Of a stretch of DNA of 64,000 bases, positions 49,417 to 64,000 are shown one piece after another (position 1 is the stretch's first letter; the number at the start of each line of letters is the position of its first letter). The translations under genes and the position numbers were made by a program. The stretch spans positions 682,001 to 746,000 of the forward strand of contig NZ_QZEZ01000001.1 of NCBI RefSeq assembly GCF_003594885.1, given 5' to 3'. This DNA is from Vallicoccus soli (GTDB taxonomy: Bacteria > Actinomycetota > Actinomycetes > Motilibacterales > Motilibacteraceae). The notes beneath the pieces were generated by a model. That model saw only the letters and a list, made by a program, of their open reading frames with translations. It had not been told where the DNA came from and ran no database searches.

Positions 49417-49443
49417 TCGGACCGTCACGAAGGGGTGCGGGTC

Positions 49444-52188
49444 ATGGGTGCAGGGCACGTGGTACGCGGTCTGGTCGCCGCCGTGGGCGGCGCGGCGCTG
49501 CTGGCCGGGGGGCTCGCGGCCCCGGCGACGGCGGCGCCGCCGGGACCGCCCGGGCCGCCGGAGCGCACGACGTCGGCGGGGGACCCGGTGGACCTGGGCG
49601 CCCTCTTCGTCGGGGCGCACCCGGACGACGAGGCCGGGACGCTGTCGACGTTCGGGCAGTGGGGGCAGGACCACGGCCTGCGCACCGGCGTCGTCACGAT
49701 CACCCGCGGCGAGGGCGGCGGCAACGCGGTCGGCCCGGAGGAGGGCCCGGCGCTGGGGCTGCTGCGCGAGGCGGAGGAGCGCGCGGCCGTCGGCCGGGCC
49801 GGCATCACCGAGGTCTTCAACCTCGACGAGGTCGACTTCTACTACACGGTGAGCGCCCCGCTCACCCAGCAGGTGTGGGGCGAGGATGACACGCTGGCCG
49901 AGGTGGTGCGCCTGGTGCGCCAGACCCGCCCCGAGGTGCTCGTGACCATGGACCCGGCGCCCTCGCCGGGCAACCACGGCAACCACCAGGAGGCGGCGCG
50001 GCTCGCGCTCGAGGCGTTCTACGCCGCCGCGGACCCGCTCGCCTTCCCCGAGCAGCTCGCCCGCGAGGGCCTGCGCCCCTGGGCGGCCTCGCGCGTGCTG
50101 CTCAACCGCTCGCGCGGCACCGGCACCCCCGGCCCGGCGTGCGCGACCTCGTTCGTCCCGGTCGACCCCAGCCAGACCGTGTACGGCGTCTGGTCCGGCC
50201 GCGACGCCGGCGGCGGGCGGACGTGGGCGCAGGTCGAGCGCGACGCCCAGCGGGTGTACGCCTCCCAGGGCTGGGCGGTCTTCCCCGACGTCCCGACCGA
50301 CCCGGCCCAGCTCGGCTGCGACTACCTCACCCAGGTCGACAGCCGGGTGCCCTCGGCGCGCCCCGGCTCCGCCGCCGCCGCCGACCCGGCGGCGGCCCTC
50401 TACGGCGCGACCGTGCGGGCCCCCGGCGGCACGCCGCTCGGCACGGGGCTGGCGGTGCGGACCTCGCAGTTCGACGTGCAGCCGGGCGAGCGCCTCGCGG
50501 TGACCGTCACGGCGCAGGCCCCGGACCGGACCGGCCTCGGCCGCGCGCAGGTGCGCCTGCAGGTCCCCGCGGGCTGGCGGGTGCGCGGCGACGGCGACCT
50601 CGGGGCGCTGCGCCCGGGCCGCTCGGCGACCGCCACGTTCACGGTGACCGCCCCGGCCGACGCCGCCCCCGGGACCCGGGTCCGGGTCGGCGCCTCGCTG
50701 CGCACCGACCGCGGCACGGGCTGGGCCGACCGCCCGGTGCAGGTGGCCGCGGAGGTGACGGCGCACCAGCAGCCGCTGCCGCAGGTGGCCGAGTTCGAGG
50801 AGGCCGTGACCGCTCTCGGCCTGCCGCAGCTGCAGGGGTTCGTCCAGCCGGTCCTGACCCTGCCGTCCGGCGGCAGCCGCGAGGTGCGGGTCGACCTGCG
50901 CAGCGCGAGCGACGAGCCCGAGCAGGGCACGGTCGCCATGGAGCTGCCGGCCGGGTTCGCCGCCGAGCCGGTCGAGCAGCCGTACGAGGTCGCCGCCGGC
51001 GGCACGGCCTCCGTCACGTTCACCGTGACGAACACCGACGCCTCCCTGCCGACGAGCAACCAGGGCGGGACGGCCGGGGACTACCTCTACGCGCTGCGCA
51101 CGACGACCGGGGACGGCTCCACGTCCACGACGACGCCGGCCCTCGAGCTCGTCCCGTCGACGACCGTGCCCGCCGCCGCGACGGCGCCGGTGGTCGACGG
51201 GGTGGCGTCCCCCGGCGAGTACGCCGGGGAGGAGCTCGACCTGTCCCGGCTCTGGGAGGGCACCGCGTGCACCTCCCCGGCCGACTGCTCCGCCACCGGG
51301 CACGTCACGCACCACGACGGCGACCTCTACGTGCACGTCGACGTCACCGACGACGTCGCCGGGACGGCGCTGGCGCAGGCGGACTGCAAGCGCCACTGGC
51401 GCACCGACTCCGTCGAGGTGGCGGTCGACCCGACGGGGACGTCGGAGAACACCTCGACGACCTTCAAGGCCTTCGTCCTGCCCCGCACCGCGCAGGGCGG
51501 GCCGTGCGCCGGGCGCGACGCCGACAACCGGCAGGGGCCGGCCGCGGAGACGGCGCCCGGGCTGGGGTTCGCGTCGGTCGAGCGGGCGGGCGGCTGGTCC
51601 GTGGAGCTCAAGATCGACGCCGCTGACCTGCCCGCGGCGGTCGACCCGCAGCGCATGGGCTTCGACGCCTTCGTCTACGACAGCGACACCCAGGACCGCA
51701 CCGGGCAGACCCGCATCGGCTGGTCCACCTGGCAGGGCGTGCAGGGCGACCCCTACCGCTGGGGCCGGGCCGTCCTCGAGGGCTACGAGGTCCCGGACGA
51801 CGCCCCGGACGCCCCCGTCGCGCCGGTCGTGCCGAGCGAGGCGCTGGACTCGCTGGACTCCCCGCAGTCGCTGGAGCAGGCGGTGCGGGTCGACGTGCCG
51901 CTGGCCGGCGGGCCGCAGGCCCCGGCGCGGCGCAGCGGCTGGGTGGCCGCCGCCGAGGAGCGGGGCTCCGCGGTCGCGGTGCGGGTGCGCGCCACCGGCG
52001 CGGGCCGGATGACGCTCTTCGTCCGCGACGCGGGCGGCACGGCCGGGCAGCGGGCCGTCCGGGTCCCGGGCGCCGGCACGCTCACCGTGCGCGTCCCGCT
52101 CGACCGGGCCCTCGACGGCCCCTCGGCGGTCGTCGCCGGCTGGCGCGTGCCCGCCGGGACGCTGGCGTCGAGGACGCCCGTGCGGTAG
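49444..52188 (+). CDS. large secreted PIG-L deacetylase with NEW3-like and CBM9-like domains
   Basis: A 914-aa exported enzyme. The signal peptide (VVRGLVAAVGGAALLAGGLAAPATAA) is followed by a PIG-L domain (about 50-310) with zinc motif HPDDE at 59-63 and His178/His181 in GNHGNHQE. Then come two NPCBM/NEW3-like beta domains (about 340-580), a CBM9-like domain (about 585-775; ATAPVVDGVASPGEYAGEELDLSRLWEG, DLYVHVDVTDDV, GFDAFVYDSDTQDRTG) and a beta-rich tail. PIG-L enzymes remove acetyl groups from GlcNAc-type sugars. The ATG at 49444 has AAGGGG 8 nt upstream; the GTG at 49435 lies within it. Last gene of the sugar operon; a strong hairpin follows. Confidence 0.9.
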   Translation: MGAGHVVRGLVAAVGGAALLAGGLAAPATAAPPGPPGPPERTTSAGDPVDLGALFVGAHPDDEAGTLSTFGQWGQDHGLRTGVVTITRGEGGGNAVGPEEGPALGLLREAEERAAVGRAGITEVFNLDEVDFYYTVSAPLTQQVWGEDDTLAEVVRLVRQTRPEVLVTMDPAPSPGNHGNHQEAARLALEAFYAAADPLAFPEQLAREGLRPWAASRVLLNRSRGTGTPGPACATSFVPVDPSQTVYGVWSGRDAGGGRTWAQVERDAQRVYASQGWAVFPDVPTDPAQLGCDYLTQVDSRVPSARPGSAAAADPAAALYGATVRAPGGTPLGTGLAVRTSQFDVQPGERLAVTVTAQAPDRTGLGRAQVRLQVPAGWRVRGDGDLGALRPGRSATATFTVTAPADAAPGTRVRVGASLRTDRGTGWADRPVQVAAEVTAHQQPLPQVAEFEEAVTALGLPQLQGFVQPVLTLPSGGSREVRVDLRSASDEPEQGTVAMELPAGFAAEPVEQPYEVAAGGTASVTFTVTNTDASLPTSNQGGTAGDYLYALRTTTGDGSTSTTTPALELVPSTTVPAAATAPVVDGVASPGEYAGEELDLSRLWEGTACTSPADCSATGHVTHHDGDLYVHVDVTDDVAGTALAQADCKRHWRTDSVEVAVDPTGTSENTSTTFKAFVLPRTAQGGPCAGRDADNRQGPAAETAPGLGFASVERAGGWSVELKIDAADLPAAVDPQRMGFDAFVYDSDTQDRTGQTRIGWSTWQGVQGDPYRWGRAVLEGYEVPDDAPDAPVAPVVPSEALDSLDSPQSLEQAVRVDVPLAGGPQAPARRSGWVAAAEERGSAVAVRVRATGAGRMTLFVRDAGGTAGQRAVRVPGAGTLTVRVPLDRALDGPSAVVAGWRVPAGTLASRTPVR

Positions 52189-52314: not shown

Positions 52315-52956
52315 TCAGGCGGCGTGGCGCGCCGCGAGCGTGGCGCCCGCCTCGACCGCCGCCTCCTCGGCCGCCTTGCGCATGAGGGCCGCGGTCTCGG
52401 TGAACTCGTCGAGGGCCGGGTTGACGCCGACGAGGGTGAACTCGCGCTCGACGAGGGTGAGGTCGGCGCCCCAGACGTCGGCGAGGATCCGCTGCAGGAA
52501 CGCGGTGCTGTGGTCCCAGCCCTCGCGGGGCGTGCCCGGCCCGTAGGCGCCGCCGCGGGTGGTGACCAGGACGGTCGGCGTGCCCTCGAGCAGGCGGGTG
52601 CCGAGGGGGGCCCCGGCCATGGCGAGGTCGATCCAGGCCTTCGCGTGCTGGGACACCCCGAAGTTGTAGAGCGGCAGGGCGAGCACGGCGCTCGTGGCGT
52701 GGCGGAGCTCGTCGGCGAGCCGGCCGGCCAGGGCGAGCGCGTCGCGCTGGGCCTCGGTGCGCTCGGCCTCGGGGACGTAGCTGGCCGCGATCGCGGTCTG
52801 CCAGGCGTGCGCGGGCAAGGGGTCCTGGCCGAGGTGGCGGTGGACGACGGGCAGGCCGGGGTGGGCGCCGGCGACGTGCTCGACCACGAGGTCGGCGAGG
52901 GCGCTGCTGGCCGAGCGCTCGCCCTGGATGCTGGCGTCGACGCGGAGCAGGGTCAT
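52315..52956 (-). CDS. FMN-dependent NADH-azoreductase-like flavodoxin-fold protein
   Basis: A 213-aa flavodoxin-fold quinone/azo reductase of the AzoR type: LLRVDASIQGERSASSALADLVVEHV, VLALPLYNFGVSQHAKAWIDLAMAG and VLVTTRGGAYGPGTPREGWDHSTAFLQRIL. Probably reduces quinones or electrophiles with NAD(P)H. The ATG at 52956 starts at the family N-terminus; an upstream ATG at 52989 lies inside an operator-like repeat. Divergent from a MarR regulator that likely controls it. Confidence 0.93.
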   Translation of the reverse strand: MTLLRVDASIQGERSASSALADLVVEHVAGAHPGLPVVHRHLGQDPLPAHAWQTAIAASYVPEAERTEAQRDALALAGRLADELRHATSAVLALPLYNFGVSQHAKAWIDLAMAGAPLGTRLLEGTPTVLVTTRGGAYGPGTPREGWDHSTAFLQRILADVWGADLTLVEREFTLVGVNPALDEFTETAALMRKAAEEAAVEAGATLAARHAA

Positions 52957-52977
52957 GGAGGTCTCCCGGGGTGCGAC

Positions 52978-52990
52978 GTGAATGTTCAAG
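52978..52990. promoter_or_regulatory. MarR operator-like site 1
   Basis: GTGAATGTTCAAG, a near match to the palindrome of site 2 (TGAATGTTCAA shared), 22 nt upstream of the azoreductase start. Confidence 0.6.
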
Positions 52991-53012
52991 TCGCGACGCT
53001 ACGACGCCGGGC

Positions 53013-53024
53013 TTGAATGTTCAA
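53013..53024. promoter_or_regulatory. MarR operator-like site 2
   Basis: TTGAATGTTCAA, perfect 5-bp arms around TG. It overlaps a possible -35 (TTGAAT) for marR and lies 10 nt before its -10. Its centre is 34-35 bp from that of site 1. Confidence 0.65.
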
Positions 53025-53033
53025 CCCCGGGCG

Positions 53034-53039
53034 TAGGAT
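53034..53039 (+). promoter_or_regulatory. -10 box TAGGAT before the MarR gene
   Basis: TANNNT hexamer ending 7 nt before the GTG at 53047. Confidence 0.5.
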
Positions 53040-53046
53040 GAGGCCC

Positions 53047-53607
53047 GTGACCGCCGACACCCAGCCCGAGGTCGCCCAGCGCGGGGTCGCCCAGCACGGG
53101 GTCGCCCGGCCCGGGGCTCCCGACGTCCCCTGGCTCACCGACGAGCAGCAGGAGCACTGGCGCGCGCTCATGGCCCTGCTCATGACGCTGCCGCCGGCCC
53201 TGGACGCGCAGATCCGGCGCGACGGCGGCCTCAACACGTTCGAGTACCACGTCCTCGCGGCCCTGTCGGAGGCCCGCGCGCGGACCCTGGTGCTGAGCGA
53301 CCTCGCCGAGCTCGCACGGGGCTCGCTGTCGAGGCTGTCCCACGCGGTCACCCGGCTCGAGCGCGCGGGGTGGGTGGAGCGGCGCAGCTGCACCGAGGGC
53401 GGGGGGCGGCGCACCGAGGCGCGCCTGACGCCCGCCGGGCTGGAGAAGCTCGAGCAGGTGGCGCCGGGGCACGTCCGCGAGGTCCGCCGGCTCGTCGTCG
53501 ACGTGCTGGCGCCGGAGCAGCTCGCCGCCCTCGCCGACGCGGCCCGGGCCGTCCGGGCCGGCCCGCTGGCCGGCGCCGGGGAGGGCTGCCGCGCCGTCGA
53601 CTGCTGA
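53047..53607 (+). CDS. MarR-family transcriptional regulator
   Basis: A 186-aa winged-helix regulator: GGLNTFEYHVLAALSEAR, LSDLAELARGSLSRLSHAVTRLERAGWVERRSC and RRTEARLTPAGLEKLEQVAPGHVREVRRLVVD are typical. The GTG at 53047 is preferred because it follows TAGGAT by 7 nt, while the ATG at 53017 is inside operator site 2. The N-terminus has a triple repeat GVAQRGVAQHGVARPG coded by a 15-bp tandem repeat. It probably represses the divergent azoreductase and itself, with relief by an electrophile or quinone. Confidence 0.92.
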   Translation: MTADTQPEVAQRGVAQHGVARPGAPDVPWLTDEQQEHWRALMALLMTLPPALDAQIRRDGGLNTFEYHVLAALSEARARTLVLSDLAELARGSLSRLSHAVTRLERAGWVERRSCTEGGGRRTEARLTPAGLEKLEQVAPGHVREVRRLVVDVLAPEQLAALADAARAVRAGPLAGAGEGCRAVDC

Positions 53608-55561: not shown

Positions 55562-56155
55562 TCAGCGCGGCGCCACCGCGGTCGCCGCGGCCAGCGCCGC
55601 GCCGACCACCTCGCGGCGCAGGAACGCCAGGCGGGCCCGCTTGGTCGGCAGGTCGACCTCCGGCCCGAGCTCGAACCCCGTCGCCACGAGCCGGCGCAGC
55701 GCCCGCTCGTTGCGGGCGTCCGGCTCGACGACGACCCGGCGCACCTCGGGCTCGGCGAGGACGACCGCGCCGAGGGCCAGGGCGAGCCGCCCGGTGAAAC
55801 CGCTCTCCGGCGCCTGCGCCGGCGCCAGGAGCAGGTGCACGCCCAGGTCCCCGGGCTCGACGTCGTACGTCTCCCCGACGGGGTCGGCAGCCGGCTGGTA
55901 CGTCTGCAGCAGCCCGACCGGCGCACCGTCGAGCGAGAGGAGGTACGCGTGGTGGGTGTCCAGGCCGTCGACGAAGGCGTAGACCTCACGGACCTGCTCC
56001 ACGGTGCGGTCGGTCATGCCCCAGAAGCGCGCGCGCTCCTCGCGGACCCACGCGTGCACGAGCGCCGCGTCGCGGGCGGGGTCGAGCCGGCGCACCCCGA
56101 GGGTGCGCCCGTCGCCGAACGGGTGGTCGCCCTCGGTGAGCCGGGCGTCGGTCAT
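55562..56155 (-). CDS. second siderophore-type GNAT acyltransferase (DesH-like)
   Basis: A 197-aa acyltransferase of the IucB/RhbD type (LVHAWVREERARFWGMTDRTVEQVREVYAF, DLGVHLLLAPAQAPESGFTGRLALAL, RRVVVEPDARNERALRRLVATGFELG). It is clearly related to DesC of the same operon, sharing the HAWV and VVVEPD-RN motifs, and is of identical length. AGGAGG precedes the ATG, which overlaps the stop of the acylase by 4 nt. Last gene of the operon. It probably acylates an N-hydroxylated amine with a different acyl-CoA than DesC; substrate not determinable here. Confidence 0.88.
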   Translation of the reverse strand: MTDARLTEGDHPFGDGRTLGVRRLDPARDAALVHAWVREERARFWGMTDRTVEQVREVYAFVDGLDTHHAYLLSLDGAPVGLLQTYQPAADPVGETYDVEPGDLGVHLLLAPAQAPESGFTGRLALALGAVVLAEPEVRRVVVEPDARNERALRRLVATGFELGPEVDLPTKRARLAFLRREVVGAALAAATAVAPR

Positions 56156-58248
56156 CGGTCCTCCTGGTGCTCGGGTGCGTCGGTCGGTACGGGGACGAGC
56201 TCGCCGCGGGCCCACAGCGGCGCCTGGTCCTCGGCGTGCGGTCCGGGGGCGCCGTCGGCGCCCAGGGGGACGACCCACCGGCTGGCGTCGCGGTCGGCGA
56301 GGTCCCAGACGTAGCGGGCGACCGGGCCGCGCAGGCAGAGGTCGGTGAGGCCGGGCACGCTCGCGGTGGCCAGGACGCAGTCGACGTCGCCGTGCAGGGG
56401 GGTGCCGTCGGCGGGGCGGTCGACGGCCGCCTCCCACGCCGTCCCGTCGAGCCCGTGCACGGTGCGGAGCCGGTGCGCCGCCCCCCACGGCGCGGCCGGC
56501 GCCCGGGCCGCGTCCGCGAGGGCGTCGCGCACGAGCGCGCCGGCGTCCACGCCGTGGGCCGGGAGCACGGCGAGGAGCCGCTCCAGCGCGGTCCCGATCC
56601 GCTCGAGCGGGGACAGCCACGGCGCGAGCACGTCGGGGGCGCCGGTCGGGCGGTGCAGCGGCGCGAGGAGCGGCAGGGCCGCGACCCGCTGCACCAGGGC
56701 GGCGCGCCAGGCGGCGAAGGCCCCGGCACCGGGGCTGCCCGCGTCCATCCGCCCGTCCCAGGCGAGGAGCCGGTCCCGCAGCCCGGCCGCGGGCGTGCCG
56801 GGCGCGACCGGTGCCCCGCGCAGGTGCGCGAGCAGCGCCGTCGCCGGCCCGGACGCGGTGTCGACGAGCGCGGCGGCCAGGTCGTCCACCCCGAGGCCGG
56901 TCCGCCCGGCGAGCAGCCCGTGCAGCCGCGCCGCCCGGTGGGGCGGGGCGAAGACGGTCCCGAGGTCCGCGACGTCGGGCCGCTCGTCGTTGGCGGTGAC
57001 GGCCAGCCCGTCCACCGGGAGCCCCGGCGGCACGCCGAGCGTGCCGCGCCAGGCGAGGTCGGGCTCCCAGGCCGGCACCGGCGCCCAGGCGCAGCGGGCG
57101 TCGCGGTCCGGCACCCGCCCCGCGACGAGCAGGCGCACGTCGCCCGCGGTGTCGGCGACGAGGACGCTGTTGACGGGCTCGACCCAGGCGGCGAGCGCCG
57201 CCTCGACGTCGGAGCAGGTGCGCGCGCGCAGCAGCGCCGGCAAGGCGGCGAAGCCCAGCGCGGCGTCGACCCGGGTCGGCGTGCGCAGGCTCAGCGCCTC
57301 GGCGCCGCCCCCGTCCGGACCGTCCCCCGCGGGCACCACGACCGGCCCGCGTGCGGTCTCCACGACCTCGACCTCGACCGGGTCGCCGTCGCGCACCGCG
57401 AGCACCGCCGTGCCCACCTCGGCGGGCTCCCAGCCCTCGGGGCCGAGCGCGAGCACGCGCCCGCCCTCGCGGCGCAGCCGCTCCCGGTAGAGGTCCTGGT
57501 AGTCGGCCATCGCGTTGGTGACGGCCCACGCGACCGTCCCCGTGTGCCCGAAGTGCGCGACGCCCGGCACGCCCGGGAACGCCAGGCCCACGACGTCGAC
57601 GCCCTCGTCCTCCGCGACGAGGTGGACCTGCTGGTACACCCCGGGCCGCTCGAGCACCCGGTGCGGGTCGCCCGCGAGGAGCGGGAGCCCGGAGGCCGTG
57701 CGCGCGCCGGTGACCGCGACGGCGTTGCTGCCGTCGGGCGGGCCGAGCCCGAGCGCCACCGCGAGCTCGGCGCCGAGCGCCGGGCCGTACGCGCGGAGCA
57801 CGTGCCCGCGCCACACCTTCGTCCCCACCGACCCGAAGAGCACGTGCTGGACGAGGAACACCCCGAGCGGCGTCCACGGGCGCCACGCACCGCTCCCGCC
57901 CCGGGGCAGGCCGAGGGCGCGCAGCTCCGGCGAGCGCGCGGCGCCGGCGGGGAGCCCCTCGCGGACGCCCTCGGCGTACGCGGCGACCCACCGCTGCGTG
58001 GCCGCGTCGAGGGCGGCCCAGCAGCGCCGCGCGGTGTCGTCGAGGCGCGCCCGCACCGCGAAGGCGTCCCAGGCGAGGCCGGGGGCGCCGACGTGCGCGG
58101 CGAGCACCGCCTCGCTGCGCCAGCGCTCCACCTCCAGCTGCCACGCCCGGTCCAGCGCGGTCGCCCGGCCCTGGGCGCGGGCCAGGTCGTCGAGCGACCC
58201 GGCCCGCACCGTCGGCACCCCCCACGCGTCGCGCGCGATCCCGTCCAC
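56152..58248 (-). CDS. penicillin-acylase family Ntn-hydrolase in the siderophore operon (DesG-like)
   Basis: A 698-aa N-terminal-nucleophile hydrolase. The autoprocessing site is Gly173-Ser174 in PPDGSNAVAVTGARTASGLPLLAGDPHR, giving a 173-residue alpha and about 525-residue beta subunit. WAVTNAMADYQDLYRERLR, TANDERPD and the C-terminal ATASVPGLTDLCLRGPVARYVWDL fit the family. Unlike most members it has no signal peptide: it starts VDGIARDAWGVPTVRAGSLDDLARAQGRATALDRAWQLEVERWR, directly at the mature fold. Four nucleotides follow the desD stop. A role in supplying, adding or removing an acyl group during siderophore assembly is inferred; PvdQ of pyoverdine maturation is a functional precedent in the same fold. 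Confidence 0.92.
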   Translation of the reverse strand: MDGIARDAWGVPTVRAGSLDDLARAQGRATALDRAWQLEVERWRSEAVLAAHVGAPGLAWDAFAVRARLDDTARRCWAALDAATQRWVAAYAEGVREGLPAGAARSPELRALGLPRGGSGAWRPWTPLGVFLVQHVLFGSVGTKVWRGHVLRAYGPALGAELAVALGLGPPDGSNAVAVTGARTASGLPLLAGDPHRVLERPGVYQQVHLVAEDEGVDVVGLAFPGVPGVAHFGHTGTVAWAVTNAMADYQDLYRERLRREGGRVLALGPEGWEPAEVGTAVLAVRDGDPVEVEVVETARGPVVVPAGDGPDGGGAEALSLRTPTRVDAALGFAALPALLRARTCSDVEAALAAWVEPVNSVLVADTAGDVRLLVAGRVPDRDARCAWAPVPAWEPDLAWRGTLGVPPGLPVDGLAVTANDERPDVADLGTVFAPPHRAARLHGLLAGRTGLGVDDLAAALVDTASGPATALLAHLRGAPVAPGTPAAGLRDRLLAWDGRMDAGSPGAGAFAAWRAALVQRVAALPLLAPLHRPTGAPDVLAPWLSPLERIGTALERLLAVLPAHGVDAGALVRDALADAARAPAAPWGAAHRLRTVHGLDGTAWEAAVDRPADGTPLHGDVDCVLATASVPGLTDLCLRGPVARYVWDLADRDASRWVVPLGADGAPGPHAEDQAPLWARGELVPVPTDAPEHQEDR

Positions 58249-58252
58249 GGCC

Positions 58253-60112
58253 TCAGGCCCCGTCCGGGCGGTGGGGCGCCACCGGGTTCGCCAGGGTGCC
58301 GGCGAACTGCAGCGAGGAGGCCTGGTCGGCCAGGTCCACCATCTGCAGCGTGTCGCGCAGCTGCAGCCGGTTGAGGCACGAGTGCCGGAAGCGCGGCGTG
58401 AACAGGTCGAAGCGCCGGTGCAGGGCGGGGTGCAGGTCGCGGTGCGCGGCCAGGCACGCGGCGACCGTGCGCCAGGCCGCCCCGGCGTCGAGCAGGCCGT
58501 CGCCGTCGAGCACGGCGACGAGGTGGCGCAGGAAGCCGTCGAACACGTCGGTGAACACCGACAGCAGGCGCACCTCGTCGTCGTAGTCGACGCGGACCCG
58601 CTCGACCCCGCCGGGCAGCGGGCGGTCGCCGAACACGGCCACCTCCTCGCCCACGTCCTTCATGAGCGCCCGGGACGGGACGTCGCCGCGCAGCACCAGG
58701 ATCACGTTCTCCCCGTGCGGCATGAACGCCAGGTCGTGCGCGAGCAGGCAGTGCACGACGGGTCGCAGGTACGCGTCGAGGTAGCGCTCGAACCAGGCCC
58801 GCGCCGGCAGGCCCGACCCCGCGACGAGGGCGCCGACGAGCGAGCGCCCCTCGGCGTCCCGGTGCAGCAGCGCGGCCATGGTCATGGCGCGCTCGTCGGG
58901 TGCCAGCCGCGGGACAGGGCTTTCCCGCCAGAGCGCGGCGACCATCCGCTGGTACGGCGAGCGGGTGCCCCGCCCGGCCGTGCGGTGGTACGCGTCGCCG
59001 GTGTAGCCGACCGACGCCAGCTCGCGCAGGACCGCGAAACCGCTGCCGCCGAGCTCCGGGTCGCCCGCGACGACCCCGGCCACCCAGTCGTTGATGGCGG
59101 GCGTCGCGCGCATGTACGCGGGCGACAGGCCGCGCAGGAAGCCCATGTTCTGCACCGCCAGCGCGGTCTTGACGTAGTGCCGGTCGGGCCGGTCGAGGTC
59201 GAAGAACGTCCGGATCGACTGCTGCGCCTGGTAGCGGTCCTCGCCGGTGCCCACGGGCACGAGGTCGCGGCGGCCGAGGTCGGCGGCGAACGTCACCGCG
59301 ACCCGGTGCTCCCACTGCCACGGGTGCACGGGGACGTACAGGTAGTCCGCGGGGTCGAGGCCGAGGCCGCGCAGCCGGTCCGCGAAGCGCCCGAGCTGGC
59401 CGGGGCCGAGCTGGGAGGCGTACAGGGAGCGTTCGTCGACGCCGGCACCGCACGCGAGGTGCGTGTGCTCGCGCCGCGCCGCGACCCAGACCAGGCGGAC
59501 CGGGGCGCCGGCCTCGGGCGCGTACGCCGCGGCGTCGGACACCCCGAACCCGATGCGCCCGTTGTTCGCGACGAACGCCGGGTGCCCCTCGGTCATCGAG
59601 CGCTCGACGGTCTGCAGGTCGGCCCGCGCCAGCGCCCGCGCGTCGGCGCGCCGGTGGTGCAGCTTCCAGGCCGCTCCGGCAAGGGTCGCGCTGAGCTCCT
59701 CGAGGTACGTCCCCAGCAGCCGGTCGGGCAGGCCCAGCAGGGGCTGCAGCTCGTCGACGAGGGCGAGGACGTCGAGCGGGGCGGGGAGCCCGTCGACGGT
59801 GCGCGACACCGTCGCCGGGTCGACGTCCCAGTGCTCGAGGGGCAGCACCCGCGCGGCGAACCGGTAGCGGCTCCCCGCCGGGGTGCCCAGCTCCCACCAG
59901 GTCCGCCCGAGCGCGTCCGCGGGGCCGGGGGCCGGCCCAGGGGCCGGCTCGGGCGTCAGGAGCCGCTCGTGGCTGAACTCCGCGAGCGCCTTGGTGACGA
60001 GGTGGCGGTGCGCCCGACCGACGGCCACCGGCTCGAGGTGCCCGGCGCCGAGGTCGGGGTCGGCCGCCAGGGGACCCGTCCCCGCGGCGCGGCCCAGCAC
60101 GGGCGCGCTCAT
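58253..60112 (-). CDS. desD: NRPS-independent siderophore synthetase DesD (IucA/IucC family)
   Basis: A 619-aa ATP-dependent synthetase that oligomerises and cyclises N-hydroxy-N-succinyl-cadaverine units into desferrioxamines in the cytosol. Typical motifs: EGHPAFVANNGRIGFG, YVPVHPWQWEH, QQSIRTFFDLDRPDRHYVKTALAVQNMGFLRGLSP, LLAHDLAFMPHGENVILVL and the C-terminal FerI region LFTPRFRHSCLNRLQLRDTLQMVDLAD. The ATG at 60112 overlaps the desC stop by 4 nt. Order desA-B-C-D is the same as in Streptomyces. Confidence 0.96.
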   Translation of the reverse strand: MSAPVLGRAAGTGPLAADPDLGAGHLEPVAVGRAHRHLVTKALAEFSHERLLTPEPAPGPAPGPADALGRTWWELGTPAGSRYRFAARVLPLEHWDVDPATVSRTVDGLPAPLDVLALVDELQPLLGLPDRLLGTYLEELSATLAGAAWKLHHRRADARALARADLQTVERSMTEGHPAFVANNGRIGFGVSDAAAYAPEAGAPVRLVWVAARREHTHLACGAGVDERSLYASQLGPGQLGRFADRLRGLGLDPADYLYVPVHPWQWEHRVAVTFAADLGRRDLVPVGTGEDRYQAQQSIRTFFDLDRPDRHYVKTALAVQNMGFLRGLSPAYMRATPAINDWVAGVVAGDPELGGSGFAVLRELASVGYTGDAYHRTAGRGTRSPYQRMVAALWRESPVPRLAPDERAMTMAALLHRDAEGRSLVGALVAGSGLPARAWFERYLDAYLRPVVHCLLAHDLAFMPHGENVILVLRGDVPSRALMKDVGEEVAVFGDRPLPGGVERVRVDYDDEVRLLSVFTDVFDGFLRHLVAVLDGDGLLDAGAAWRTVAACLAAHRDLHPALHRRFDLFTPRFRHSCLNRLQLRDTLQMVDLADQASSLQFAGTLANPVAPHRPDGA

Positions 60113-60702
60113 GCGAGCACCCCCGCCAGGGCGCTCGCCGCGAAGCCCTCGGGCGTGCAGGTGCTGACGACGGCGGTCTTGCACCCCAGGTCGAGCGGGC
60201 CGTGCTCCACGAACCCGGCGGCGCGGTTCTTCGCCCGTACGGCCGTGTTGCGCTCGTCGGGCTCGACCACCACGCGGCGCGCCCCCGGCCGGTCGAGGCA
60301 GAAGCGCACGACCGCCGCCATGACCGCGGACGTCAGCCCGTGGAGCGGGGCGGTGCCCTGCGCCGGCGGCGCCACGAGCAGGTGCATGCCGACGTCGCCG
60401 GGGGAGGCGTCCCAGTGCCCGACGAGCTCGCGGTGGCGCGGGTCGTACGTCTCGGCGAGGAAGGCCGGCGCCCCGTCCACGCGGCCGAGCCACGCGTCGT
60501 GGTGCGGGTCCGCGGCGATCGCGGCGTAGGCGGTCCGGACGTCCTCGCGGGACGCGCCCTGCATGAGCCAGGACGCGCAGCGCGGGTGGGTGACCCACGC
60601 GTGCAGCAGGTCGGCGTCGCGGTCCACGACCACCGGCTCCAGCGCGAGGACGCCGACGGGGGTGCGCGCCGACCAGGTGGGCGCGAGCGGGACAGCGCTC
60701 AC
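60109..60702 (-). CDS. desC: N-hydroxycadaverine acyltransferase DesC (GNAT)
   Basis: A 197-aa GNAT acyltransferase adding succinyl or acetyl to N-hydroxycadaverine. LLHAWVTHPRCASWLMQGASREDVRTAYAAIAADPHHDAWLG, SPGDVGMHLLVAPPAQGTAPLHGLTSAVMAAVVRFCLDRPGARRVVVEPDERNTAVRAKNRAAGFVEHG is the family core. The GTG at 60702 overlaps the desB stop by 4 nt. An upstream in-frame ATG would add a 49-residue Gly/Arg-rich shadow of the desB 3' end and is rejected. Confidence 0.95.
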   Translation of the reverse strand: MSAVPLAPTWSARTPVGVLALEPVVVDRDADLLHAWVTHPRCASWLMQGASREDVRTAYAAIAADPHHDAWLGRVDGAPAFLAETYDPRHRELVGHWDASPGDVGMHLLVAPPAQGTAPLHGLTSAVMAAVVRFCLDRPGARRVVVEPDERNTAVRAKNRAAGFVEHGPLDLGCKTAVVSTCTPEGFAASALAGVLA

Positions 60703-62075
60703 CGGAGCGCCCCCGCCCCGGCCAGGCCGCCCCCGGTGACGGCGGCCCCGACGCCATCGCCGTCCCCGGCCGCACCGTCGTCCTCGGCCTCGACCCCGAA
60801 GTCCTGGTACGCGATGCGCCGCTCCACCGGGTAGACCTCCCGGCCGCACATCGCGTTGATGATCACCGAGCTGCGGTGGGCGCCCATGCCGAGGTCGGGC
60901 GCGGTGAGGCTGTGCGTGTGCTCCTCGGCGTTCTGCACGTAGACCTCGCGGCCGGTGACGTCGACGGCGTAGTCGAGCGCCACGTCATAGCGCCCCCGCG
61001 CGTCCCAGCGGATGCGGTGCCGCACGGGGTCGAGGAAGGACGGGACCCCGGCGCGGTAGCCGGTGGCCAGCACGAGCGCCGACGTCGTGCGGGTGACCGT
61101 GCGGCCCTGCTCCGCGTGGTGCAGGCGCAGCGCGTAGCGGCGGCGCTCGGCGTCCCAGGACGCATCGACGAGCTCGACGCCGGTGAGCAGCGACGTGGGG
61201 ACCTCGCCGCGCACGCCCTTGCGGTAGAGGGTGTCGTACACGGCGTCGACGAGGTCGCCGCTGATGCCCTTGTAGAGGTGGCGCTGCTCGCGGGCGAGCG
61301 CGTCGCGGCGCGCCGCCGGCAGCGCGTGGTGGTAGCGCACGTAGTCCGGCGAGGTCATCTCGAGGGTGAGCTTGGTGTACTCCATCGGGAAGAAGCGCGG
61401 GGAGCGGGTCACCCAGTCCACGCGGTAGCCGAGGCGGTCGGCGTCCTCGAGCAGGTCGAGGTAGACCTCAGCCGCGCTCTGCCCGCTGCCGACGACGGTG
61501 ACGTGCCCGAGCGCCTGCAGCTCCTCCTTGTGCTGCAGGTACGACGCCGTGTGCCAGGCGGGGCCGGGCAGGCCCCGCGCCGGCTCCGGCACCCACGGCG
61601 CCGTGCCGACACCGAGGACGAGGCGCCGCCCGAGGTGCACCTCGGACGCGCCGGAGCGCACGTCGCGGGCGTGGACCCGGTACGCGCCGAGCGCGGCGTC
61701 GTGCTCGACCCGCTCGACCCGCCGGCCCCAGCGCAGCCCCGGCACCCGCCCCGCGACCCAGCGGCAGTACGCGTCGTACTCCGCCCGCAGCGGGTAGAAG
61801 CTCTCCCGGATGTAGAAGGGGTAGAGCCGCCCGGTCGCCTTGAGGTACGCCAGGAACGAGTACGGCGACGTCGGGTCGGCCATCGTCACCAGGTCCGCGA
61901 GGAAGGGGACCTGGATCGTCGCGCCCTCGATCATCATCCCGTGGTGCCACGCGAACTCCTCGCGCGCGTCGAGGAAGACGCCGGACAGGTCGGGCACCGG
62001 GGCGCTCAGCGCGGCGAGGCCCAGGTTGAAGGGGCCGATCCCGACGGCGACGAAGTCGTGCACGGGGGCGCTCAC
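60699..62075 (-). CDS. desB: cadaverine/lysine N-hydroxylase DesB (FAD- and NADPH-dependent)
   Basis: A 458-aa flavin monooxygenase of the IucD/PvdA family that hydroxylates the terminal amine of cadaverine. FAD site FVAVGIGPFNLGLAAL, substrate region MMIEGATIQVPFLADLVTMADPTSPYSFLAYLKATGRLYPFYIRESFYPLRAEYDAYC, NADPH site VTVVGSGQSAAEVYLDLL, ATGY motif LVLATGYRAGVP and MGAHRSSVIINAMCGREVYPVE. A Gly/Asp/Ala-rich tail of about 25 residues ends the protein. The GTG at 62075 overlaps the desA stop by 4 nt. Confidence 0.96.
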   Translation of the reverse strand: MSAPVHDFVAVGIGPFNLGLAALSAPVPDLSGVFLDAREEFAWHHGMMIEGATIQVPFLADLVTMADPTSPYSFLAYLKATGRLYPFYIRESFYPLRAEYDAYCRWVAGRVPGLRWGRRVERVEHDAALGAYRVHARDVRSGASEVHLGRRLVLGVGTAPWVPEPARGLPGPAWHTASYLQHKEELQALGHVTVVGSGQSAAEVYLDLLEDADRLGYRVDWVTRSPRFFPMEYTKLTLEMTSPDYVRYHHALPAARRDALAREQRHLYKGISGDLVDAVYDTLYRKGVRGEVPTSLLTGVELVDASWDAERRRYALRLHHAEQGRTVTRTTSALVLATGYRAGVPSFLDPVRHRIRWDARGRYDVALDYAVDVTGREVYVQNAEEHTHSLTAPDLGMGAHRSSVIINAMCGREVYPVERRIAYQDFGVEAEDDGAAGDGDGVGAAVTGGGLAGAGALR

Positions 62076-63586
62076 GCCGGCACCCCCTCGCGCTCGGCGC
62101 GCGCCGGGCCCGCCGGGTGCGGCACGGCCCCGCGCAGCAGGTCCTGCCCGGCCTCGCGCACCAGCGCGAGCACGGCGCGCACGTCCTCGCGCGTCGTCGC
62201 CGGGTTGAGCAGCGTGAGCTTCAGCCACGGGCGCCCGCCGACGACCGTGCGGGCCACCACGGCCTCGCCCTCGTCGAAGAGGCGGTCGCGGACCGCGCCG
62301 ACGAGCAGGTCCGCCGTCGCCGCGGGCACCCGCCCGCCCGGCCCGGCGGGGCGGTAGCGGAACAGGACGGTGCTCAGCACGGGGGCGCTGTGGACCTCGA
62401 CGTCGGGGTCGGCGAGGAGGTCCTCGTGGACCTGCGCCGCGAGGTCGATGCACGCGTCGAAGGCGTCGCCGACGGCGTCCGCGCCCATCGTCCGCAGGGT
62501 GAGCCACAGCTTGAGCGCGTCGAAGCGGCGGGTGGTCTGCAGGCTGCGGTCCACCTGGTTCGGCACCCGCTCGCCGCGCGGGTTGAGGTACGCGGCGTGG
62601 TGGGTCGCGTGACGCAGCGCGGCGCCGTCGCGCACGAGCAGCGCCGAGGACGCCACCGGCTGGAAGAAGCTCTTGTGGAAGTCCACGGTGAGGGAGTCCG
62701 CGCGCTCCACGCCGTCGAGCAGGTGCCGGCGCCGGCGCGAGACGAGCAGGCCGCAGCCGTACGCCGCGTCGACGTGCAGCCGCACGCCGAGCTCGCCGCA
62801 GACGTCGGCCAGCGCGGCGAGCGGGTCGACCGCCCCGAGGTCGGTCGTCCCGGCGGTGGCGACGACGGCGGCGACGACGTCGCCGGCCGCCCGCGTGCGC
62901 AGCACGGCCGCGCGCAGCGCGGCGGGGTCCATCCGGTGCCGCGCGTCCGTCCCGACGGTGACGACCGCGCCGTCGCCGAGCCCGAGCAGCCGGGCGCCCT
63001 TGGCGACGCTGAAGTGCCCCTGGTCCGTTGCGAGGACCCGCAGGCGCGCCCCGGGCGGCAGCGCGCCCCCGGGCAGGGCCGCGAGGGCCTCCTCGCGGGC
63101 GAGCAGCAGGGCCTGCAGGTTGGACTGGGTGCCGCCGCTGGTGAAGACCCCGTCGGCGGCGGGCCCGAGACCGGCCCGCTGCGCGGTCCAGGCGACGAGC
63201 CGGCGCTCCATCAGCGTCGCCGTCGTCGACTGGTCCCAGGTGTCGACCGAGGTGTTGACCGCGGAGGCCAGCAGGTCGGCCGCGAGCGCCGGGACGGCGA
63301 CCGGGCAGTTGAGGTGGGCGACGTACCCCGGCTCGTGGAACCACACCGCGTGCTCCAGGTAGAGGCGGGACGCCTCGCGCAGCGCCGCGGTCGTGTCGCC
63401 GAGCGGGGCGTCGAGGTCGACGCCGGCGACGAGGTCCTCGAGGTCCTCGAGCGCCGCGCCCGAGCGCGGTCGCTGCACGACGCGCACCCGGTCGGTGAGG
63501 ACGTCGAGCGCGGTCGTCATGGCCGCGGCGTAGTGGTCCACCGTCGCCCCCGAGAACAGGTGCGCGGCAGGCGTGTGCTCCGTCAC
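62072..63586 (-). CDS. desA: PLP-dependent lysine decarboxylase DesA
   Basis: A 504-aa group II pyridoxal-dependent decarboxylase supplying cadaverine for desferrioxamine. YVAHLNCPVAVPALAADLLASAVNTSVDTWDQSTTATLMERRL, GVFTSGGTQSNLQALLLAREEA, VVATAGTTDLGAVDPL, LHVDAAYGCG, and the PLP lysine Lys305 in VDFHKSFFQPV identify it. The GTG at 63586 has GGAGGGA 6 nt upstream. First gene of the six-gene operon; an IdeR/DmdR-like iron box at 63602-63620 lies over its -10 region, so repression by Fe2+-bound regulator is expected. Confidence 0.96.
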   Translation of the reverse strand: MTEHTPAAHLFSGATVDHYAAAMTTALDVLTDRVRVVQRPRSGAALEDLEDLVAGVDLDAPLGDTTAALREASRLYLEHAVWFHEPGYVAHLNCPVAVPALAADLLASAVNTSVDTWDQSTTATLMERRLVAWTAQRAGLGPAADGVFTSGGTQSNLQALLLAREEALAALPGGALPPGARLRVLATDQGHFSVAKGARLLGLGDGAVVTVGTDARHRMDPAALRAAVLRTRAAGDVVAAVVATAGTTDLGAVDPLAALADVCGELGVRLHVDAAYGCGLLVSRRRRHLLDGVERADSLTVDFHKSFFQPVASSALLVRDGAALRHATHHAAYLNPRGERVPNQVDRSLQTTRRFDALKLWLTLRTMGADAVGDAFDACIDLAAQVHEDLLADPDVEVHSAPVLSTVLFRYRPAGPGGRVPAATADLLVGAVRDRLFDEGEAVVARTVVGGRPWLKLTLLNPATTREDVRAVLALVREAGQDLLRGAVPHPAGPARAEREGVPA

Positions 63587-63601
63587 AGAGCGTCCCTCCG
63601 G

Positions 63602-63620
63602 CTAGCATAGGCTCACCTAA
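63602..63620. promoter_or_regulatory. IdeR/DmdR-type iron box between desA and the SIP gene
   Basis: On the minus strand TTAGGTGAGCCTATGCTAG, matching the consensus TTAGGTTAGSCTAACCTAA at 15 of 19 positions. It contains TATGCT (minus, 63604-63609) and TAGGCT (plus, 63608-63613), plausible -10 hexamers for desA and for the reductase gene, so one bound repressor would block both. Confidence 0.8.
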
Positions 63621-63688
63621 GTCGGAGCGAGACACTACACAGATGGCGGCGCCGCGGTCACCCCGGGCGACGCGAGGAGGGACGCGGC

Positions 63689-64000
63689 GTGCAGCACGGC
63701 TGGGAGGGGGTCGTCCTCAAGGCCCTGCGGGGCAAGGACTTCGTGCTGACGGTCCGGGGGACCGAGCGGGTGTCCGAGCGCTACCAGCGGGTCCGCGTCG
63801 AGGACGGCGGGCTGCTCGCGGCCTGCGGCGCGCACCCGGCCATGTGGGTGCGCCTCTGGTTCGACGACGGCGGCAGGCCGCACCAGCGGGCGTACACCGT
63901 GGTCGACCCCGACCCGGCCGCGGGGACCTTCGACCTCGAGTTCGCCCTCCACGAGGGCCCCGCCGCGCGCTGGTCGCTCGCGGCGGCCCCGGGCACGACG
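63689..64000 (+). CDS. siderophore-interacting protein (ferric-siderophore reductase), partial 3' end missing
   Basis: An open frame from the GTG at 63689 to the window edge, 104 codons, with AGGAGG 8 nt upstream. The sequence VLKALRGKDFVLTVRGTERVSERYQRVRVEDGG, HPAMWVRLWFDDGGRPHQRAYTVVDPDPAAGTFDLEFALHEGPAARWSLAAAPG matches the FAD-binding N-terminal domain of SIP (ViuB/FscN-like) proteins, with RAYTVVD as the flavin motif. It should release iron from the imported siderophore. The NAD(P)H-binding half is beyond the window. Divergent from desA and probably under the same iron box. Confidence 0.87.
   Translation, partial: MQHGWEGVVLKALRGKDFVLTVRGTERVSERYQRVRVEDGGLLAACGAHPAMWVRLWFDDGGRPHQRAYTVVDPDPAAGTFDLEFALHEGPAARWSLAAAPGTT

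Follow-up and report, generated by a model that had tools for sequence, protein, structure and literature searches.

DesG and DesH homologues form the tail of a compact desferrioxamine operon in Vallicoccus soli

The last two genes of a desferrioxamine-type operon of Vallicoccus soli are desG and desH, which encode a pair of already described enzymes; both are ordinary members of their families, and they are located here in a single compact operon. Together they very probably constitute an accessory module for the production of acetyl-capped desferrioxamine (DFO) B via a swap of succinyl for acetyl. The genes were found in a 64,000 nt stretch of contig NZ_QZEZ01000001.1 (the window), in the minus-strand order desA-desB-desC-desD-desG-desH (63586 down to 55562), and the features of the region are as follows:

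63689..64000, running past the window end, plus strand: start of a divergent siderophore-interacting-protein (SIP/FAD) gene, desJ-like (PF04954, E 4e-24; PF08021)
63602..63620, minus strand: iron box of the DmdR1/IdeR type, TTAGGTGAGCCTATGCTAG, 15/19 to consensus, 15 nt upstream of the desA start
62072..63586, minus strand: desA, PLP-dependent lysine decarboxylase, 504 aa, GTG start (PF00282, E 7e-60)
60699..62075, minus strand: desB, cadaverine N-hydroxylase, 458 aa (PF13434, E 3e-116)
60109..60702, minus strand: desC, GNAT N-acyltransferase, 197 aa (PF13523, E 1e-46; DesC half of the tree)
58253..60112, minus strand: desD, NIS synthetase, 619 aa (PF04183, E 7e-80; PF06276, E 1e-34)
56152..58248, minus strand: desG, penicillin-amidase-family enzyme, 698 aa, GTG start (PF01804, E 6.8e-136, residues 4-693)
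55562..56155, minus strand: desH, GNAT acyltransferase, 197 aa, ATG start (Acetyltransf_8, PF13523, E 5.5e-48)

All products of the operon gave the Pfam matches typical of desferrioxamine biosynthesis, with Penicil_amidase and Acetyltransf_8 in addition; the matches of the SIP gene come from the extended locus (L135:611-1426). This confirms the coordinates and the view, taken in an earlier sequence-only reading, of a desferrioxamine-type operon with desA, desB, desC and desD upstream that is extended by two further genes. The desC product is expected, by analogy, to succinylate N-hydroxycadaverine. The genes overlap by 4 nt at desA/desB, desB/desC and desC/desD, the GTG of desG lies a few bases past the desD stop, and the TGA of desG and the ATG of desH share 4 nt (ATGA). 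The iron box is the only match of at least 14/19 in the 64-kb window, and nearly every related locus has an iron box in front of desG or desA; desABCDGH looks like one iron-controlled operon. No Rfam elements were detected in the window, and a promoter/terminator scan, which is uninformative on such GC-rich DNA, gave no match in the region. Elsewhere in the window, a 917-aa protein (49435-52185, plus strand) combines a PIG-L deacetylase domain with an NPCBM-associated and a CBM9-like domain, and a flavodoxin-fold quinone/azo reductase-like gene is divergent to a MarR-type regulator (52318-53604).

The function of the two genes has been studied in Streptomyces coelicolor, where desG (SCO4049) and desH (SCO4050) were inactivated in a PLoS Biology study of 2025 (PMC12161575). 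DFO B went down about 1000-fold in the desG mutant and 16-fold in the desH mutant while DFO E went up, complementation brought back DFO B, and for strains without desGH only uncapped DFOs were reported (PMC12161575). S. coelicolor depends on both genes for normal amounts of DFO B, and the pair in the window can be expected to yield DFO B (plus E) rather than an exotic siderophore. The S. coelicolor pair and the window pair belong to the same families and share their pairing, iron-box control and a neighbouring SIP-type gene; however, the former lies in a separate locus far from desABCD, whereas the latter forms the tail of desABCDGH, as in Geodermatophilaceae. In the model proposed by the authors, N-hydroxy-N-succinylcadaverine is desuccinylated by DesG, and DesH acetylates what results (PMC12161575). 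Applied to V. soli, DesG would cleave itself at Gly173/Ser174 in the cytosol to give an N-terminal-nucleophile amidohydrolase and would then strip succinyl from the N-hydroxy-N-succinyl-cadaverine unit, the freed hydroxylamine would be acetylated by DesH, and DesD would be able to assemble capped DFO B in addition to cyclic DFO E.

The DesG protein carries the conserved catalytic residues of its family, and no other PF01804 protein is encoded in the genome. Its PF01804 domain is full-length, the autoprocessing site Gly173-Ser174-Asn175 is intact, as the sequence-only reading had noted for Gly-Ser, and this site with its nucleophile Ser174 after Gly173, as well as the oxyanion residue Asn420, is invariant in 40 aligned DesG proteins; its gene adjoins desH, and is linked to desABCD and the iron box at 63602-63620. 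The AlphaFold2 model (pLDDT 84.7, pTM 0.89) retrieved cephalosporin/glutaryl acylases and a D-succinylase as the first-ranked folds. A structure of a DesG homologue is present in the PDB as 'Penicillin acylase family protein' (35sz); this protein is 46% identical to DesG of the window, has a longer spacer between the chains, and is identical to the protein of a related locus (L003) in which its gene adjoins a DesD homologue. As the beta chain of 35sz begins at the nucleophile Ser, self-processing does occur in a DesG-type protein. A shortened DesG of 599 aa (L007:1456-3252, genome G030) is missing the first conserved motif, RDxWGxPH, together with a portion of the alpha chain, retains Gly-Ser-Asn, and may be degenerate or differently started.

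The cytosolic location claimed earlier was likewise supported, as judged from start position and hydrophobicity in the window and in 80 related loci. DesG starts approximately 4 residues ahead of the mature-fold motif and thus has no signal peptide, and none of the 80 loci showed a convincing signal peptide either (0/80); in nearly all of them the start codon precedes the first conserved motif by 0–18 residues, and this interval contains no hydrophobic stretch. Export via an upstream extension, which would have overturned the earlier claim, was rejected, since the 60 in-frame codons upstream sit inside desD and represent an Arg/Pro-rich shadow frame.

After 35sz, the closest solved relatives of DesG are a class III cephalosporin/glutaryl acylase and a D-succinylase, and the comparison with these gives clues to the substrate. 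The class III cephalosporin/glutaryl-7-ACA acylase N176 (4hsr), which acts on cephalosporin side chains, is 36% identical to DesG over the beta chain. Molecular dynamics of N176 showed that its substrate is stabilised by R24β, Y32β, H57β, H70β, H178β, N242β and Y467β (PMC6712217). Among the positions compared by alignment, DesG shares β24, β32, β57 and β242 with N176 as Arg197, Tyr205, His232 and Asn420, all four invariant in the 40 aligned DesG proteins, but has Asn245 rather than His at β70. The D-succinylase of Cupriavidus (7eby), which by its name removes succinyl groups, has the same fold (Z 34.4, rmsd 3.3, 655 residues aligned) and Arg at β24 like DesG, but is only 27% identical, does not conserve β57 and has an N-terminal extension before the first common motif. 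In contrast, β24 is Leu in 13 locus hits to penicillin-amidase paralogues encoded by other genomes of the class. Penicillin G acylase, with its hydrophobic acyl pocket, has Phe at β24, where DesG has Arg (40/40 aligned proteins). These residues favour a pocket that would suit a dicarboxylic acyl group, for instance succinyl, rather than phenylacetyl or a fatty acyl group, and the succinyl-hydroxamate is the likely substrate. The argument is one of alignment, however, and against a succinyl pocket may count that β57 is His and not Arg, and β70 Asn and not His; in the Pseudomonas glutaryl acylase it is the Arg at β57 that binds glutarate.

Another possibility, which we consider rather unlikely, is that DesG acts late by cutting the terminal N-succinyl off the linear trimer desferrioxamine G1, a product of DesD, upon which DesH acetylates the end to give DFO B; this would be a cytosolic end-group exchange after assembly, not a balancing of monomer pools. 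The terminal group is all that distinguishes DFO G1 from DFO B, which fits such an exchange, and the cephalosporin acylases, which are among the closest folds to DesG, accept bulky amine leaving groups. It would also account for the stronger phenotype of the desG mutant relative to the desH mutant in S. coelicolor, as the 1000-fold versus 16-fold decrease is not obviously predicted by a model in which DesG feeds DesH. On the other hand, the authors of the S. coelicolor study favour the monomer, and the DesD studies cited by them suggest control by the HSC/HAC ratio (PMC12161575).

It is considerably less probable that the two enzymes add or swap aryl or fatty acyl groups of the phenylacetyl type, resulting in arylated or lipidated desferrioxamines. 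Aryl-capping was the original hypothesis for desG, and capped DFOs, including those with aryl and fatty-acyl groups, have been reported only from strains with desGH, save for one desG-only Gordonia (PMC12161575); however, S. coelicolor has desGH yet makes no arylated DFOs, and its mutants lose DFO B (PMC12161575). Furthermore, the invariant Arg at β24 of DesG is replaced by Phe in PvdQ (title of 4bth), and the nearest solved relatives of DesG are dicarboxylate acylases. Of the function suggested by the sequence-only reading, the identity as DesG-DesH stands while the aryl-modified role has been superseded by the S. coelicolor knockouts (PMC12161575); similarly, the swapping or trimming of acyl groups is retained, but not the modified siderophore, given the ordinary acetyl-capped DFO B in S. 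coelicolor and a pocket that argues against phenylacetyl. That DesG is a catabolic or resistance enzyme (a beta-lactam or acyl-homoserine-lactone acylase) in the operon by chance is hardly credible. The penicillin and AHL acylases do belong to the same Pfam family, but DesG is constantly linked to DesH, iron boxes and desABCD across families, lacks an export signal where several PF01804 paralogues bear an N-terminal hydrophobic stretch, and scores 29 bits against the NCBIfam equivalog cut-off of 950 for PvdQ, whose periplasmic signal it does not have.

The last gene of the operon encodes a 197-aa paralogue of DesC that overlaps the acylase gene by 4 nt, as claimed earlier, with 40% identity over 179 aa. 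In a tree of 112 sequences, 26 DesC and 72 DesH proteins were separated with a support of 1.0 and without exception (98/98 labelled sequences), with DesH of the window placed among the DesH proteins. The tree puts the DesC/DesH split before these lineages diverged, and a recent duplication of desC as the origin of desH was rejected. The gene also passes the published rule for DesH, a PF13523 GNAT gene within 1 kb of a PF01804 gene (PMC12161575). DesH belongs to the same GNAT N-acyltransferase family as DesC and the DfoC acyl domain (5o7o), but DesC forms a separate clade with Glu84, His67 and Asp69 where DesH has Gln84, Thr67 and His69. The sharpest of the fixed differences is that at position 84, with Glu in 26/26 DesC and Gln in 72/72 DesH proteins, and the DfoC acyl domain and NcdE have Glu as in DesC; further fixed differences (DesC/DesH) are His67/Thr67, Asp69/His69, Leu93/Val93, Gly95/Glu95 and Cys182/Leu179. 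The fixed residues are candidates for determining the choice of acyl-CoA, and the specificity of DesH is probably for acetyl, as was proposed for S. coelicolor (PMC12161575).

We compared the best 80 named loci among >560 related stretches in one genome collection. The desH gene is located directly downstream of desG in 72 of these 80 loci, and in 13 of the 72 the two are fused in one frame with no stop between (L034, L041, L050, L058, L068, L073, L074, L078, L081, L085, L092, L099 and L105). One Modestobacter has such a fusion while its sisters have two genes, and the fusions probably arose repeatedly. The remaining 8/80 loci do not represent a DesG-without-DesH state, as a DesH-type gene is present elsewhere in each genome; six of the loci with desG but no adjacent downstream desH (L040, L042, L048, L059, L093 and L109) are from Micromonosporaceae. 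In 25/80 loci desD is located within 10 kb of desG, in 11 of these 25 on the same strand ahead of it, and the six-gene order is kept in Modestobacter, Blastococcus and Trujillonella (DesG identity 74-77%). The Streptomyces homologues match the neighbourhood described for SCO4047-4052, with a SIP-type gene, HhH-GPD and SDR (PMC12161575). A DesG-type protein was found in approximately 40 of 297 sampled genomes of the class, as called from a gap in the listed scores (~465 bits, versus ~400 or less for other relatives), and tblastn found no relatives on viral contigs.

The operon itself was probably transferred between this lineage and a Geodermatophilaceae-like one, as a whole block. From position 55583 of the window to ~430 bases past its end (55583-64000 together with L135:1-1430), the DNA is 78–80.5% identical to Modestobacter and Blastococcus, and the shared block of about 9 kb, which consists of the SIP gene and desABCDGH, has sharp ends, with similarity ceasing at the end of desH. 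DesD is 81–84% identical to its Modestobacter and Blastococcus counterparts, whereas RpoB, which served as lineage marker, is only 77–80% identical to these genera versus 86–88% to four genomes from the family to which V. soli belongs. DesD and DesG are both absent from all four own-family genomes compared. The sequence similarity of the block (~80%) even though RpoB points elsewhere makes transfer the simplest explanation.

Desferrioxamine B is used as an iron-overload drug, and how cells choose between DFO B and DFO E was explained just recently by the work on DesGH. In the published model, the step with the succinyl substrate rests on genetics and family resemblance, and the shared Arg at β24 provides independent grounds, open to testing, for regarding a succinyl compound as the substrate of DesG. 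With the V. soli locus there is now a compact version of the pathway in a single operon, one that apparently moved by horizontal transfer, and the organism is predicted to make DFO B (plus E).
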